In this document: piece after piece, positions 23,943-36,303 of the stretch
Position numbering within the stretch: the stretch's first letter is position 1
Layout: each line of letters starts with the position of its first letter
Assembly: GCA_004282745.1 (NCBI GenBank)
Contig: SHMT01000009.1
Location: forward strand, 1-39,038
Direction of reading: 5' to 3'
DNA: 39,038 nucleotides
Source: Candidatus Scalindua sp. SCAELEC01
GTDB lineage: Bacteria > Planctomycetota > Brocadiia > Brocadiales > Scalinduaceae
Notes under the pieces: model-generated
What the model was told of the DNA's origin: nothing
Database searches by the model: none
The model's input: the letters and a program-made list of their open reading frames with translations, nothing else
Position numbers and translations under genes: made by a program

Positions 23943-23964
23943 AATGAAACTTATACTCTAGGAA

Positions 23965-25450
23965 GTAGTTTGGTTTTTTGCCAATATCTTACATTGTAGT
24001 CCCGCGCTCATATTTATCATTTTCGGTGTCCTCTCTTTTTTTGTAATCGCCTATATCTGCACGCTTCTCCCTGAGTTTCTTTTAAGGTTTCTGGCCTATA
24101 TTATTACTCACACTATTTACAGAATCAAGATCATTGGTAGAGAGAGCATTCCTCAGGAGGGGGGAGCGCTCCTTGTCTGTAACCACGTCTCTTACAATGA
24201 TGAAGGTCTTGTACTTGCCTGTACTCAGCGGTTTATTCGTTTTATGATGCTGCGGGAGATCGCCAACAACAAACTGTTAAGGCCCTTTTGGATGGAGAAC
24301 TTGTCTGCATCTTTGCCGAGGGGGGAATTACCCGGACCGGCCACATAATGGTGTTCAAGAGGGGTTTTGAAAGGATTATGAAAAATATTGATGTCCCCAT
24401 CATACCGGTAAATCTGGATCGTGTCTGGGGGCAGCATCTTCAGCTTTGAAGGGGGAAAGTTTTTCGGGAAAGTGCCATCAAGATCGCCTTACCCGATAAC
24501 GGTCTCATTCGGCAAACACATGCCGTCCAGTGCATCGGCCTATCAGGTAAGGAGGGCAGTCTCCGAACTTGGTTCGGAAGCTTTTAAATATCGGCTTGGC
24601 AAGAGAGATTCATTACCCTATCGCTTTTACCGTCAGGCGATAAAGAGGCCATTTAGAAGATGCGTGACGGATTCGAGTGGTACAATACTGACTTATGCGA
24701 AAGCCTGTATGGGGGCTGTACCCCTGTTTCACTCATTCGGGTACACGGGGGCCTTGTGGTATCCCCTAACTACGGGTATGGGCGTTGTCTACCATAATAA
24801 TCCCCTTGATTTCAAGATCACGGGTGAAATGGTTGAGAGACATAAAGCGACACTATTAATGACAATGCCTACATTTCTCATGGGACAGATACGTAAATGT
24901 ACACCGGAACCGTTCAGCTCTTTACGATACGTTGTTGTCGGCGCTGAGAAACTACAAGAGAGGATTACTAAGGCCTTTATAAGAAAATTTAACAGAGGGC
25001 CATTAGAGGGGTATGGCTGCACGGAATTATCTCCTGTCGTATCCGTTAATGTACCAGATGTGATTGATAAAGAGATAAGGCAGATGGGCAACAAACCAGG
25101 CACTGTTGGACGACCTTTAACCCGGAATAACAGCCAGGATAGTCAATCCCGATACGTTTGAAGAGCTGCAGGCCGGAGAGGAAGGCCTTCTCCTCATCAA
25201 GGGTCAAAATGTTATGCTGGGATATCTGGGTGGCAAAGAGAGTACGCGGAAGGTCATGCACCATGATTGGTACATTACGGGTGATATTGACCTTGAGAAA
25301 CTGTGCAAAGAGATGTCAGAGAGTGAACTACCAAAACTGTGGCTTCCTAAAAAAAGCTCCTACTATCAGGTCTACAAAATTCCCGTATTGGGCAGTGGCA
25401 TACTTGACTCACAGAGGATTAAATCCGTGCCCCATTTTTTTACATCCGTC
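23965..25450 (+). pseudogene. Aas-type acyltransferase/acyl-ACP synthetase, shattered
   Basis: The remains are collinear with the 2-acylglycerophosphoethanolamine acyltransferase/acyl-ACP synthetase fusion. First comes the last transporter-like helix (IFIIFGVLSFFVIAYI). A PlsC-like domain follows with LLVCNHVSYNDEG (HxxxxD) and CIFAEGGITRTG. The AMP-ligase part has PLFHSFGYTGALWYP, VVVGAEKLQERI, LEGYGCTELSPVVSVNVPD and WYITGDI, and the typical tail LPKLWLPKKSSYYQ. Damage includes an internal deletion after REIANNK (~24275), a one-base insertion near 24430, a large deletion after GTILTYAKA (~24700), a frameshift near 25125 and a deletion after TGDI (~25290). The N-terminal transporter domain is gone. 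It would have recycled lysophospholipid. Confidence 0.85.
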
Positions 25451-25816: not shown

Positions 25817-26668
25817 ATGAAGAAAAAAACCGTTGCCGTAATAGGAGCTGGTACTATTGGAGCTGATGTGGCCTTAGTTCTTTCTCTTAACAACTACTCT
25901 GTTTTGCTTAAGGATCTTTCCAAAGTTATACTCGACAAAGCGGAAAAGAGCATCAGAGATAGTTACAGATTCACAAAAATGATGAGAAAATCAGACCCTA
26001 TGCCCTCCCTGAATGATGTATTAAACAGAATAGAACTTACTACAGATTATGAGGGCTTCCAAGAAACGGATTTTGTAATAGAAAATATCACTGAAGACTA
26101 TGAGGCAAAAAAGAATGTCTATTTAGAGCTGAAAAAGATGTGTCGAAAAAACACGATTTACGGTGTGAACACCAGCTGTATTTCAATAACCAAAATCGCT
26201 GCACTTATGCTGGTTCCTGAAAACGTCATCGGAACACATTTTATGAATCCCGTTCCTTTATCTAAATTAGTGGAAGTAGTAATGGGATACCACACATCAG
26301 AAGACACTATAGAGAAAACCAGACATCTTATCCAAACTCTTCAAAAGACCTGCATTGTTGTTAACGACTTGCCGGGTTTTGTAACCAACCGGGTAATGAT
26401 GCTCACCGTTAATGAAAGTATATGGTTGGTTCACGATCAAGTTGCTGTAGCTAAAGATGTTGATATGATTTTTAAGTTGGGATTTGGACACAAAATGGGC
26501 CCGCTTGCCACAGCAGATCTTATCGGCCTAGACACGATTCTCAACTCCTTATCTGTACTTTATGAAAACTACAATGATCCAAAGTATAGACCCTGTCCTC
26601 TTTTGCGAAAAATGGTAGAAGCAGGAATTTTAGGAAAAAAGTCCGGTAGAGGATTCTACAACTATTGA
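25817..26668 (+). CDS. fkbK: FkbK-like 3-hydroxyacyl-CoA dehydrogenase-family oxidoreductase
   Basis: The 283-aa protein is a full-length 3-hydroxybutyryl-CoA dehydrogenase-family member. The NAD-binding GAGTIG is at 10-15, then ENITEDYEAKK, NTSCIS (Ser120) and catalytic His141 in GTHFMNPVPLSKLVEV. NDLPGFVTNRVMM and KMGPLATADLIGLD belong to the C-terminal domain. By itself it could be a fatty-acid or butyrate enzyme. Its 4-nt overlap (TTGA) with an FkbH-like gene, followed by ACP and acyl-CoA dehydrogenase genes, points to the FkbK role: oxidising the C3 hydroxyl of glyceryl-ACP. A TATAAT-like string lies 4 nt before the ATG; no Shine-Dalgarno box is clear. Confidence 0.85.
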   Translation: MKKKTVAVIGAGTIGADVALVLSLNNYSVLLKDLSKVILDKAEKSIRDSYRFTKMMRKSDPMPSLNDVLNRIELTTDYEGFQETDFVIENITEDYEAKKNVYLELKKMCRKNTIYGVNTSCISITKIAALMLVPENVIGTHFMNPVPLSKLVEVVMGYHTSEDTIEKTRHLIQTLQKTCIVVNDLPGFVTNRVMMLTVNESIWLVHDQVAVAKDVDMIFKLGFGHKMGPLATADLIGLDTILNSLSVLYENYNDPKYRPCPLLRKMVEAGILGKKSGRGFYNY

Positions 26669-27720
26669 ACGATAAAAAAACTCTCTTGAAAGAATTGAAA
26701 AAAATTAAATGCATTGTTTGGGATCTAGATAATACTCTGTGGGATGGCACTCTTCTCGAAGGAGACGACGTAAAGTTAAAAACTGGCGTTAGTGAGGTGA
26801 TTAAGACACTTGATCAACGAGGTATCCTCCATTCCATAGCCAGTAAAGGTAACTATAATGATGCTATGCTGAAGCTTAGTGAATTCCAACTTGATGATCT
26901 TTTTCTTTTCCCGGAAATAGGCTGGGACTCAAAATCTCAATCTATTGCCAAAATACAAAAGAACTTAAATATAGGCATGGATACGTTAATTTTTATAGAC
27001 GATCTATCCTTTGAGCTGGATGAAGTAAAGAGCGTACATCCCCAAGTAACTTGTATTAAGGCGTCACAATACTTGAATCTTCCATCCCATCATCTTTTGA
27101 ATCCGAAATTCATCACACGGGATTCAAGCAGAAGACGCTTAACGTACATCGAGGATCAGAAAAGGAGAGAAGAGGAAAGAGATTTCAAGGGACCTCGGAA
27201 GGAGTTCCTGGCATCTCTAGATATTCATATTCAAATCTCTGAAGCCAAGGATGATGATTTAAAAAGAGCTGAAGAGTTAACCGTAAGGACCAATCAGCTT
27301 AACGCAACAGGCAAGACATACAGCTATGATGAGCTGAAGCTGTTAATGGATTCGAAAAATCACAAGTTGCTCATATGCGAGATGAATGATAAGTATGGGG
27401 CTTATGGGAAAATAGGCCTTTCTGTAGTTGAAATTTTCAAAGATTATTTTTATATCAGACTTCTATTGGTATCCTGTAGGGTTATGTCAATAGGCGTTGG
27501 CACCGTTCTTTTATCTTATGTTATGCACGAAGCCAAAAAATTCGGAAAGAGGGTCAAAGCGGATTTCAGACACACCGGGAGAAACCGAATGATGTATATT
27601 ACATTTAAGTTTGCCAACTTTAAGGAAATTCTTGTAGACGAATCTGGTACAATAGTCCTGGAAAAGGATCTATCATCCATTCAAGAATATCCTTCATATA
27701 TAAATCTAACCATTAAGTGA
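26665..27720 (+). CDS. fkbH: FkbH-like glyceryl-ACP synthase (HAD plus GNAT-like)
   Basis: The 351-aa protein has the two-part FkbH build. The N-terminal HAD domain has VWDLDNTLWDGTL (Asp20, Asp22, Thr24), a SKGN motif (61-64) and IDDLSFELDEV. The C-terminal domain has RTNQLNATGKTYS and LVSCRVMSIGVG, with Cys272 in the family's SCR motif. Characterised members (FkbH, OzmB) take 1,3-bisphosphoglycerate, dephosphorylate it and load the glyceryl unit on an ACP. The start is TTG 26665, overlapping the FkbK stop as TTGA; no nearby ATG fits the family length. Together with its neighbours this strongly indicates a glyceryl-derived extender or building block. Confidence 0.9.
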   Translation: MNDKKTLLKELKKIKCIVWDLDNTLWDGTLLEGDDVKLKTGVSEVIKTLDQRGILHSIASKGNYNDAMLKLSEFQLDDLFLFPEIGWDSKSQSIAKIQKNLNIGMDTLIFIDDLSFELDEVKSVHPQVTCIKASQYLNLPSHHLLNPKFITRDSSRRRLTYIEDQKRREEERDFKGPRKEFLASLDIHIQISEAKDDDLKRAEELTVRTNQLNATGKTYSYDELKLLMDSKNHKLLICEMNDKYGAYGKIGLSVVEIFKDYFYIRLLLVSCRVMSIGVGTVLLSYVMHEAKKFGKRVKADFRHTGRNRMMYITFKFANFKEILVDESGTIVLEKDLSSIQEYPSYINLTIK

Positions 27721-27741: not shown

Positions 27742-27987
27742 GTGGATGTATCTGAGAAAGTTCGAGCATTTGTACATGCCAATCTAATAGCATTTAGTGA
27801 TGATTTAATACTTAAAGATGATGACAATTTTTTTGAGTTGGGTTTTGTGGACTCTCCCTTTGCCATGCAACTGGTTTGCTTCGTTGAGGATACATTTAAC
27901 ATTTGTGTTACCGATGAAGACTTGGATTTATTAAATTTCAGCACGATTGCTCGTATCGTTCAATTTGTTAAAAGGAAAATATTATAA
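27742..27987 (+). CDS. fkbJ: Stand-alone acyl carrier protein, FkbJ-like
   Basis: The 81-aa acidic protein has the ACP fold pattern FFELGFVDSPFAMQLVCFVE. Ser38 is the predicted phosphopantetheine site. The usual DSL/NSL is here DSP, a substitution next to the modified serine, but the following AMQLV matches the FkbJ/ZmaD type better than fatty-acid AcpP. GTG start at 27742 with AGGAGAG 7 nt upstream. The stop overlaps the acyl-CoA dehydrogenase ATG (TAATG). It should carry the glyceryl unit made by FkbH. Confidence 0.9.
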   Translation: MDVSEKVRAFVHANLIAFSDDLILKDDDNFFELGFVDSPFAMQLVCFVEDTFNICVTDEDLDLLNFSTIARIVQFVKRKIL

Positions 27988-29135
27988 TGAGTAATGAATC
28001 CAGCCAGCAGATGGTTGTACGAGAAGCCAGGCTTTTTGCCGACGAAGTATTGCGGCCAAGGGCTGGGGATTTTGATAGAGAGGAGTTCCTCCCACGAGAC
28101 ATTATCGATGAATTGGCAAAAAGAAAGTATCTTTTGGCCAGTTTACCCGAAGCGGATGGAGGGTTGGGGCTGGATCCTGTATATTACGGTTTTTTGACGG
28201 AAGAGATCGGAAAAGCATGCTGTTCTACACGGGGACTGATTACGGTTCAGAGTTCGCTAATCGGAGAAACCCTGATGAGGTGGGGTAAAAAAGAGCAGAA
28301 AGCCAAATGGTTGTTGCCGCTGTCCAATGGAGAGAAAATTGGAGCCTTTGCACTCACCGAACCGGGAGTGGGAACCGATGCAAAAGGTGTTCAGACCTCT
28401 TATGTGAAAAGAGGGAAGGAATATGTACTCAACGGGACCAAGAAGTGGACTTCATTTGGTGAGCTAGCCGATTTTTTTATTGTCATTGCTGCATGCCGAA
28501 CGGAAATAACTGCCTTTATCGTTGAGAGGGACCGATCGGGAATCACGATTTCTCACCAGAAAGGCTTACTGGCAAATAGGGCATCTCACCTCTCCGAGAT
28601 TGAGTTTCAAAACGTGACCATTCCCGAAGAAAACATCATTGGCAAACCAGGAAGTGGGTTTACCTTTATAGCGAGCACAGCATTAGATCACGGAAGATAC
28701 AGTATTGCCTGGGCCGGTGTTGCCATTGCCCAGGAGGCCTTGGATTCCATGGCGAAATATGCCAGAGAGCGGAAGGCTTTTGGGCGTAAGATCGGCGAGT
28801 TCCAACTCATACAGATGATGATAGGAAATGCAGTGACCAAGACCCATGCGGCCAGGGCCTTATGCATTAAGGTGGGAGAGATGCGATCCAGGGGAGATAG
28901 TAATGCTACAATAGAGACCACGATTGCCAAATACTTTACTTCACAGATTGCCTGTGAAGTTACAACCGATGCGGTCCAGGTTCACGGTGGAAACGGTTGT
29001 TCAAACAACTATCCGGTTGAACGCCTGTTTCGCGAAGCAAAAGTTCTTGAAATTATTGAAGGAACATCTCAAATTCAGCAACTCATAATCGCAAAATATG
29101 GACTAAGGAAATATGGAAAAAGTAGTCATTATTAG
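27987..29135 (+). CDS. fkbI: FkbI-like acyl-CoA dehydrogenase
   Basis: The 382-aa flavoprotein has full acyl-CoA dehydrogenase architecture: [17 protein letters not shown] at the substrate loop, NGTKKWTS, the C-terminal helical domain with [15 protein letters not shown] and VQVHGGNG, and a catalytic Glu358 in [11 protein letters not shown]. In the methoxymalonyl/hydroxymalonyl-ACP pathway FkbI completes the oxidation of the C3 aldehyde to a carboxylate. The ATG overlaps the ACP stop by one base and AAGGA lies upstream, so the two are coupled. Without context it would be called a generic acyl-CoA dehydrogenase. Confidence 0.9.
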
Positions 29136-29203
29136 TTCGCTCCTTTATCAGAAGGTATCCTTGTCCTCCATTTTCGCGAGAAGATAAAAGACAAAAAACA
29201 CGG

Positions 29204-30133
29204 ATGATCACAATAGAGGATTTAGAAAAATATATCAAGCCATTACAAGAGGAAATTGACAAGATCAACCCCGATATTTGCGTCCAGTTTCCAATTTCGG
29301 TTTATATCGACAGTGTAAAATCCTATTTTCAAGTTCGTACCCATTCCTATTTTAGCTACAAACGGAGAAAAATATTTACAAAAATTAAAACCATTAATGG
29401 CTTTCATGCATTGGCTTTGTATCAGAAACTTGCGCTTGCATATTTCATGAAAGATTCTTTAGAACGCTTAAAACCAAAATCTTTACCGAAAGGAATTATT
29501 CTCGAAATACACTCTTGGTATCAAAGAGTTGTCGATGATTTCACCAGACAAGCAGATAGCTATTATGACTATTTGAAAATTGATTTTATATATGACGTAG
29601 GAGTGTGCTGCCTCAAGAGCCTGCCAATTGGCGGAGCCTGGTTCGTTCAGGTGCGCAGAATCGGTTTTCGACTGATTTTAGCATCAGGTATCCGTCAGTT
29701 AATAGAGCTATTGGGTTACCTAATTTTTAAAACAGGAGGCTTTAGGCATTACTGCGTAATCCATACCTACCAACGTTACTTACCTCGCTTTAATTGCCAA
29801 CAAATGAACTTGGCTTACCGGTTGATCGGTGAATTAATCAAGTATAATCCCAAAATAAAAGGTCTCTACAGGAGAAGTTGGTTCTTAAACCCAAACCTGG
29901 AAGCGATTAGCCCTAATCTTACCTATTTAAGAGAGATACCTCTGCAAAACGGTGCCACACTGTTTAAGGCTGGCTTAATCGAAGAAGATATCAAGTATTC
30001 TCTGGCATTTTCTCCACACCGACGGAAATTGTATGAAGAAGGTAAGTATTCACCCCTCTCCTATGCTTATATCTGGCCCAAAAATGAATTTCTTTTCTGG
30101 CTTAACAAAACCAATACCGAATTGTTAGGTTAA
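29204..30133 (+). CDS. Conserved protein of unknown function near the Fkb cassette
   Basis: The 309-aa protein lacks a signal peptide. It has a helical N-terminal half with a possible hydrophobic stretch at ~150-172 (SLPIGGAWFVQVRRIGF...). The conserved-looking C-terminal half includes HYCVIHTYQRYLPRFN, LYRRSWFLNPNLEAISPNL, TYLREIPLQNGATLF and SPLSYAYIWPKNEFLFWL. I recall unannotated proteobacterial proteins with this C-terminal pattern (HTYQP ... SWFYDP ... SPRLAYLRE), but no function. It starts 68 bp after fkbI on the same strand and may be cotranscribed, making it a candidate acceptor, transferase or tailoring protein of the glyceryl pathway. No Shine-Dalgarno box is evident. Confidence 0.75.
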   Translation: MITIEDLEKYIKPLQEEIDKINPDICVQFPISVYIDSVKSYFQVRTHSYFSYKRRKIFTKIKTINGFHALALYQKLALAYFMKDSLERLKPKSLPKGIILEIHSWYQRVVDDFTRQADSYYDYLKIDFIYDVGVCCLKSLPIGGAWFVQVRRIGFRLILASGIRQLIELLGYLIFKTGGFRHYCVIHTYQRYLPRFNCQQMNLAYRLIGELIKYNPKIKGLYRRSWFLNPNLEAISPNLTYLREIPLQNGATLFKAGLIEEDIKYSLAFSPHRRKLYEEGKYSPLSYAYIWPKNEFLFWLNKTNTELLG

Positions 30134-30566
30134 CATCTCTGTTGCTATATGCCTATTTTGTTTCAAGGCAAAGTGAATAGGGTAGAGAACAAGATATTCA
30201 CGTTAAGTTTTGTATGCGCAAAAAACTATTATCCGGTTAAATTTTAACAGGTAATTTCAGTTGAGGAAATTTTTTCTTACAATCGAACGTAAATTAAAAA
30301 TCTCCTTATCAAAAATACTTTATTTTCACTCTTCATTATTCTAGCATAAGAGCAATTAGCTAGCATTCGGATTCGTTTCTGGGAACGCGATACCTGAATG
30401 CCATTTTTATTTTTTCAATTTGCGACTCAATGAATGGTGTAACTTCTCTGCCAATGAGTAACACCGTCTATTAAGTTTACTACGTTGACTCCCAGAAATT
30501 GTGCTCCCAACAGCAGTAGACAAGGAATTTGATAATCGAGGATAGGATGTAAACTCGACCTTCGAA
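30134..30566. other. Gene-free gap before the radical SAM gene
   Basis: AT-rich DNA with many stops on both strands. No repeat of the families seen elsewhere, no clear hairpin and no small ORF with a ribosome binding site were found. In particular, no precursor-peptide candidate was recognised. Confidence 0.4.
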
Positions 30567-31601
30567 ATGGCAAAAATTTGGGTGGAGATGCGGTTCTGGT
30601 TTACCCTTACCGGAGCCGCGTTTGATTATCAAGGGTCTATTTGGACTGGTGAAATGGCTTCAATTCAGATTACAACACAAATCGGTTGCCGGAATTCCTG
30701 CGATTACTGCCCACAGGACCTGCTCATTGAAGCGAACCGGAAAACGGACGGGTCCTTGATAATGACTTTTGACACATTCAAAACCTGTGTCAAAAAAATT
30801 CCCCTTCAAGTTGCAATCTGGTTTGCGGGGATGTGCGAACCATGGTCTAACCCCAAATGCACAAAAATGCTGTTGTACGCACATGAGCAAGGACACGGAA
30901 TCGGGGTCTTCACGACTCTGGTCGGTATGTCGACTGCGGACCTCGATCTTCTTCAATTGGTCCCTTTTCAGTTCTTTCGGATACACCTTCCTTCGAAAAG
31001 TGGTATCGAGAGTATCAAAATCAGTGACAATTACCTACGTTGTCTGGGTAAGGTGATCTCCAACGGGATTCCCGTTACTTTCCATTGTCACGACCAGGTA
31101 GTTCCGGAAGTGGTCTCCATTCTCGATCAAAATGGGTATAGGGCAGAACTCCGTTCCCTCTATCGTAGGGCGGGAAACATCTCTGTCTCAGGTCGCCTCA
31201 AGGCGGGAAAGAGACGAGGTGCTATCGCCTGCCAACGGAGATCCCGTAGTAACGTGCTGCTACCGAATGGTGACGTATTACTCTGCTCAAACGACTATGG
31301 AATGAAACACACTCTTGGAAACCTGCTCGAAACCAGTTATGAATCTCTCTTTACCGGAAGCGAATTTCAAAAAATCCAGAGAGGCCAGACAGACGAATCA
31401 CTTGACGTTCTTTGTAGGTATTGTGACAATTTCGCGTACGACCTGGACGCTTACGCAAGTTTACAAAACTGGAGCTACCACATCGATCGTTTCCTGTACT
31501 ACCCGAGAAGAATTAGGAGTTGGGAAGACGCTCTTCAGTTGTTGGGGAAGGTGCGGTTCGTTGTCAGGAACGCCTCAAGAAGTATATTCAAAGGAAAATG
31601 A
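30567..31601 (+). CDS. Radical SAM enzyme with SPASM-like C-terminus
   Basis: The 344-aa protein carries the radical SAM cluster motif CRNSCDYC (Cys41, 45, 48) directly after the strand SIQITTQIG. Next comes the GMCEPWSNP glycine-rich/GEP-like region. Toward the C-terminus, NVLLPNGDVLLCSNDYGM and TLGNLLETSYESLF followed by CRYCDNF form a twitch/SPASM-like auxiliary cluster segment. This layout is typical of enzymes acting on peptides or of sugar/lipid maturases. The start is uncertain: ATG 30567 gives 344 aa; ATG 30654 would begin just before the first strand. No substrate can be assigned; proximity to the Fkb cassette is suggestive only. Confidence 0.82.
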   Translation: MAKIWVEMRFWFTLTGAAFDYQGSIWTGEMASIQITTQIGCRNSCDYCPQDLLIEANRKTDGSLIMTFDTFKTCVKKIPLQVAIWFAGMCEPWSNPKCTKMLLYAHEQGHGIGVFTTLVGMSTADLDLLQLVPFQFFRIHLPSKSGIESIKISDNYLRCLGKVISNGIPVTFHCHDQVVPEVVSILDQNGYRAELRSLYRRAGNISVSGRLKAGKRRGAIACQRRSRSNVLLPNGDVLLCSNDYGMKHTLGNLLETSYESLFTGSEFQKIQRGQTDESLDVLCRYCDNFAYDLDAYASLQNWSYHIDRFLYYPRRIRSWEDALQLLGKVRFVVRNASRSIFKGK

Positions 31602-35919: not shown

Positions 35920-36303
35920 TCAGTATCCATAGTTTTTGATTCCAATGATCTTTTGCAACATACGAAAGTGGCTGTCTAAAGAGTAAATTCTACAATTATT
36001 TTGTTTTGAATTTTGCGCGATAATCAAATAAGGTATTCCAACCCCACTCATGCCGGACTTTAAGCATTTTATTTGAAATTGTATGATTTCCTCCCAATTA
36101 ATTTTTAGAGGAAATTTCATAATTTCGTTTAATAACCTGACCACCTTATTCTGTCTCTTTACTCTTAATGATGGAATCAATTCCGTAAGGATAATATCAT
36201 TAGTTACGATAAGATTTTCATCTATCAAAGCACTCAGTTCACTTGATTTGATGCCACCTCTGAAGTAATCCACCCATATAGATGTGTCTACAAGCACCTG
36301 CAT
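35920..36303 (-). CDS. vapC: VapC-type PIN-domain toxin with altered active site
   Basis: The 127-aa PIN-domain ribonuclease family member starts MQVLVDTSIWVDYFRG. Expected acidic residues are Asp6, Glu41 (ILTELIPSL) and Asp110 (YSLDSHF). The third family acid, normally Asp in GIPD, is Tyr92 here (GIPYLIIAQN); the codon is TAT where GAT would restore Asp. Metal binding would be weakened, so the toxin may be inactive or attenuated. Its ATG overlaps the antitoxin stop by one base (TAATG). Length and fold are otherwise complete. Confidence 0.88.
   Translation of the reverse strand: MQVLVDTSIWVDYFRGGIKSSELSALIDENLIVTNDIILTELIPSLRVKRQNKVVRLLNEIMKFPLKINWEEIIQFQIKCLKSGMSGVGIPYLIIAQNSKQNNCRIYSLDSHFRMLQKIIGIKNYGY

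Follow-up and report, generated by a model that had tools for sequence, protein, structure and literature searches.

Do the two genes that follow an Fkb-type cassette in an anammox-order bacterium take part in the use of its product, or do they stand beside it by chance? The question arises from a 39,038-nucleotide stretch of DNA (the window; contig SHMT01000009.1, positions 1 to 39,038) of Candidatus Scalindua sp. SCAELEC01, in which a 309-aa protein (p309) and a radical SAM protein are encoded downstream of the cassette and on the same strand. An earlier note had proposed that the two could transfer or modify the glyceryl-derived unit if their linkage to fkbH is conserved. The features concerned are as follows.

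25817-26668, + strand: fkbK-like 3-hydroxyacyl dehydrogenase (ORF and domain match)
26665-27720, + strand: fkbH (TIGR01686, 247.2 bits, cut-off 146.65)
27742-27987, + strand: stand-alone acyl carrier protein, ACP (PP-binding, 28.5 bits, cut-off 20.8)
27987-29135, + strand: fkbI-like acyl-CoA dehydrogenase (ORF and domain match)
29136-29203: spacer between fkbI and p309, 68 bp
29204-30133, + strand: p309, undescribed family (309 aa, ATG start)
29744-30106, + strand: conserved part of p309, residues 181-301 (comparison with relatives)
30134-30566: spacer between p309 and the radical SAM ORF, 433 bp, 34.9% G+C
30567-31601, + strand: radical SAM protein with a SPASM-type C-terminal part (344 aa; start possibly at 30654)

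FkbH, the ACP, and the two dehydrogenases occur together in the window, and the motif DLDNTLWDG is visible in the fkbH product. The cassette is probably of the hydroxymalonyl-ACP type and would supply a three-carbon unit of an unusual kind. The 433-bp gap that separates p309 from the radical SAM ORF showed no terminator-like site, and the window contains no Rfam match. Repeats around the ORFs yielded only weak, chance-like pairs and were set aside. Elsewhere in the window, positions 35920-36303 on the minus strand encode a VapC-like PIN-domain protein (NF047959, 51.4 bits, under the cut-off of 80).

The window is part of contig 19 of a draft genome of 4.59 Mb (98.57% complete, 104 contigs), in which no modular polyketide synthase (PKS) was found. 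Because no such synthase is visible, consumption of the ACP-bound unit may require a different enzyme. The five ketosynthases of this genome each occupy a 415-435-aa open frame (contigs 10, 18, and 19) and are arranged as two adjacent pairs and one single gene. The closest cassettes in G016, a genome of the same family, accompany a PKS or an NRPS, and the FkbH of a Paenibacillus genome (51% identity) is located near a PKS-NRPS. An FkbH match is also present at 106190-107110 in a genome of the same order (G021). Two further loci of the window's genome are of note. On the window's contig, approximately 27 kb past the end of the window, genes for an ACP, a dehydratase-like protein, two of the five ketosynthases, a desaturase-like protein, and additional genes stand in a row (L070, 7698-14216) that resembles a ladderane lipid cluster. 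On contig 59, a second FkbH-type protein forms part of a 919-aa ORF (L071, 3042-5801, minus strand) that adjoins asparagine-synthase-like and glycosyltransferase-like ORFs, both named by eye.

A cassette that has lost its PKS could be a decaying remnant, with p309 and the radical SAM ORF as functionless bystanders. This is consistent with the absence of a PKS from the genome and with a broken gene just upstream of the cassette (window positions ~23960-25450, plus strand), which is of the acyl-[ACP]-phospholipid O-acyltransferase/acyl-ACP synthetase type and has pieces in all three forward frames (NF006386, E 6e-74 on the piece at 24421-25158). However, all six ORFs, four in the cassette and two behind it, are intact, and both downstream proteins retain the residues fixed throughout their families, which makes decay an unlikely explanation.

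The p309 ORF starts where the earlier note had placed it, 68 bp past the fkbI-like ORF and on the same strand. Its description as a protein without a known domain also holds, in that Pfam, NCBIfam, PHROGs, and the PDB all lack a match and the sole Pfam row (E 0.094) falls under the cut-off. A profile of eight relatives scores p309 at 85.3 bits, whereas none of 2000 shuffled copies exceeds 5.2 bits, and p309 is therefore a real gene. Identity to its relatives is 26-34% (E down to 1e-22) and resides mostly in residues 181-300, with a mean of 11% at residues 1-72 and ~35% at residues 181-300, bearing out the constraint that had been noticed in the C-terminal half. The residues common to p309 and its relatives include H187-T188, R191, F196-N197, S225-W226-F227, P230, I235-S236-P237, L242-R243, S270, R273, and W291-P292, among others. 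Thus, p309 is a conserved, probably enzymatic protein with constrained motifs in its C-terminal part. Three relatives scanned against Pfam and NCBIfam likewise have no match, so that the family is undescribed as far as these collections go; in particular, neither p309 nor the three relatives match a GNAT or FemAB model. Single-sequence structure predictions of p309 are of low confidence (mean pLDDT of 35.8 for the whole protein and 37.4 for residues 120-309). Weak PDB matches of the family profile to TGF-beta proproteins (best E 0.83) were discarded.

Of 398 Pseudomonadota genomes, five encode a relative of p309 (E 1e-19 to 1e-21), and a profile search gave the same five; within the order to which one of these belongs, nine of the 120 genomes examined do so, the five included. 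On the basis of an HfsH-like gene and of gene content, this order is taken here to be the Caulobacterales. The gene is confined to the window's own genome both among 59 relative genomes and among 392 genomes of the phylum (E 0.001). Five weaker Planctomycetota matches (E 0.016-0.085) are short, stop-broken, or within unrelated proteins and were attributed to chance. No relative was found in 398 Bacillota genomes, when genome and viral contigs were scanned for sequence patterns, or by tblastn of plasmids and phages.

In all nine loci, a polysaccharide deacetylase gene adjoins the p309 relative in convergent orientation. Seven of these loci also contain ETF-QO, a TPR protein, ispE, glyQ, and glyS; none of these genes was found in the other two, which instead have nicotinate phosphoribosyltransferase nearby. 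Since the surroundings differ, the pair persists in two settings, which favors a role of p309 on sugars. The three deacetylases that were scanned all contain PF01522, and the two run against NCBIfam score 149 and 172 bits against the HfsH model, short of its cut-off of 400. By analogy only, the p309 relatives may modify sugars exposed by the deacetylase. Against a role on glycans, the two genes of the pair are convergent and not co-directional, and because the sampled relatives come from one order only, the deacetylase may be an inherited rather than a functional neighbor.

The proposed functional link to the cassette depended on conserved linkage to fkbH, for which all six window proteins were searched at E 1e-4 in roughly 8-10 kb on each side of the relatives. 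FkbH, FkbI, FkbK, and the ACP are absent from the surroundings of the p309 relatives (0/9 loci) and of the radical SAM relatives (0/7). Conversely, five other FkbH loci (L022, L023, L029, L024, and L025) contain no relative of p309 or of the radical SAM protein, and the 26 loci behind the FkbH hits, some of them duplicates, give only weak scores (best E 0.37 for p309 and 0.013 for the radical SAM protein). The homologues are scattered and never accompany fkbH in this sample; because they do not travel with Fkb genes, the adjacency in the window is probably accidental. Of the earlier proposal, the descriptions of the two proteins are thus retained, while transfer or modification of the glyceryl unit, insofar as it was argued from conserved linkage, is not. 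A plain rejection of any functional link is nevertheless withheld because the host genome has no visible modular PKS.

It is this absence that lends interest to p309 as a dedicated user of the cassette product: in place of the missing PKS, it would hand the ACP-borne glyceryl or hydroxymalonyl group to an acceptor that is not a polyketide, for instance an amino sugar. The 68-bp distance from fkbI on the same strand, a G+C content (37.6%) matching that of fkbK and fkbH (38%), and a genome holding five stand-alone ketosynthases only all agree with such a role, as does the pairing of the relatives with a deacetylase, whose action would free amines that could then be acylated. In contrast, FkbH is missing near all nine relatives, p309 has no relative beside the similar Fkb cassettes of G016 and Paenibacillus, p309 matches no acyltransferase family, and a profile comparison between the p309 family and the C-terminal FkbH domain yielded a probability of only 0.4-0.5%, so that this kinship was rejected. 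A dedicated role is therefore rather unlikely. The more specific version, in which the cassette works without a PKS and p309 draws the group straight from the ACP and attaches it to an amino sugar or a lipid head group in the cell envelope, is a long shot; if true, it would represent a new use of an extender-unit pathway. More generally, were p309 to use the cassette unit, the pathway would serve a non-polyketide product, and a limited search of the literature on FkbH found no case of the unit feeding a non-polyketide product.

The second ORF encodes a radical SAM/SPASM protein, as had been suggested from its sequence. SPASM (PF13186) scores 35.2 bits (cut-off 21.5) on the 344-aa ORF, while Radical_SAM (PF04055) is weak, with 18.4 bits being below its cut-off of 29.5. 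The CxxxCxxC motif, formed by C41, C45, and C48, is common to seven of seven relatives. A complete SPASM motif has seven cysteines. This full set was not found, as only C222, C240, C283, and C286 of the SPASM part are common to all eight aligned sequences, suggesting one auxiliary cluster. Where the protein starts is not certain, since in tblastn six of the seven relatives align from residue 33 onward and one from residue 11; an ATG at residue 30 is a possible alternative. In a PDB search with the family profile, BtrN was the sole solved structure matched (E 3e-5, in the C-terminal part). PAT1 chains, obtained from the PDB with phmmer (E 0.0006-0.001), were absent when the family profile was used and were dropped as chance matches.

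Among the 59 relative genomes, the radical SAM gene is likewise found only in the window's own. Its nearest relatives found are in seven of 72,556 plasmid records, all of them rhizobial, with matches that cover 74-84% of the query at 34-38% identity; viral contigs yielded none. Five of the plasmid loci (L036, L037, L038, L073, and L074) have nif genes around the relative, a sixth (L075) places it among hydrogenase genes, and the seventh (L076) with an IS66 element and sugar-transport genes. Upstream of the window's radical SAM ORF, no sigma-54 or NifA site was found. A sigma-54-like site precedes one of the seven relatives and a NifA-like site two of them, too few to be of use.

The radical SAM enzyme might in principle modify the Fkb-derived unit or its product, being encoded on the same strand and next but one to the cassette. 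A cassette in G016 also directly adjoins a radical SAM gene (L022, 7120-8718, minus strand), at a locus that includes a PKS and a glycosyltransferase, but the enzyme encoded there is B12-binding and belongs to a different class. The 433-bp gap, the difference in G+C content (47.4% for the radical SAM gene), and the lack of Fkb genes near the seven rhizobial plasmid relatives further render this role very improbable.

The explanation preferred here, with a confidence somewhat short of even, is that the two ORFs are separate single genes and chance neighbors of a hydroxymalonyl-ACP cassette, that p309 acts on sugars, and that neither is a dedicated Fkb enzyme. Chance adjacency is favored by the missing Fkb genes at all loci of both sets of relatives and by the confinement of both genes to the window's genome among the 59 relatives. 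The two genes would probably have been acquired independently and have happened to land downstream of the cassette, which is favored by the G+C contents differing among p309, the radical SAM gene, fkbK/fkbH, and fkbI (46.6%). Weighing against chance are the close, co-directional position of p309, its G+C content equal to that of fkbK and fkbH, and the lack of a PKS to use the cassette product.

On this explanation of separate genes, p309 would be a sugar-modifying enzyme that most likely transfers acyl groups in concert with glycan deacetylation. The gene, its family, the conserved C-terminal part with its fixed H, R, N, S, and W residues, and the deacetylase neighbor of the relatives are all shown, whereas the activity is inferred. 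The role in glycan modification is suggested by the constant deacetylase neighbor; acyl transfer is hinted at more faintly. The lack of both an acyltransferase family match and a confident fold counts against this explanation. The radical SAM protein should, judging from its cysteines, carry the SAM 4Fe-4S cluster plus a single auxiliary cluster and, like BtrN, the only solved structure that its profile matched, may oxidize a small or sugar-like substrate. The locus brings to light a protein family that has no name and whose relatives are accompanied by a deacetylase gene in all nine loci, as well as a full set of genes for an extender unit in a genome of the anammox order in which no PKS is visible.

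Hydroxymalonyl-ACP and methoxymalonyl-ACP pathways have been described for zwittermicin A and FK520-type systems, respectively (PMC4207774, PMC7489565). Like these cassettes, the window has FkbH, a stand-alone ACP, and 3-hydroxyacyl and acyl-CoA dehydrogenases; unlike them, it shows no O-methyltransferase among the adjoining ORFs scanned, and its genome has no PKS. The holdfast polysaccharide of Caulobacter is shaped by HfsH together with the putative acyltransferase HfsK, the two acting in one process (PMC5362036, PMC8449245). The HfsH-like deacetylase adjoining the p309 relatives makes for a functional analogy with this set. The differences are that p309 and three relatives match neither GNAT nor FemAB, that the HfsH match of the relatives' deacetylases is below cut-off, and that no deacetylase was seen beside p309 among the window ORFs, which were scanned in part. 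The radical SAM protein resembles BtrN and the SPASM/twitch enzymes in having both CxxxCxxC and a C-terminal cysteine set, with the likeness to BtrN being limited to the C-terminal part. Its rhizobial plasmid relatives differ in their surroundings, standing among nif, nod, acdS, hydrogenase, or transport genes and not Fkb genes, yet these radical SAM/SPASM proteins and the window protein have identical cysteines.
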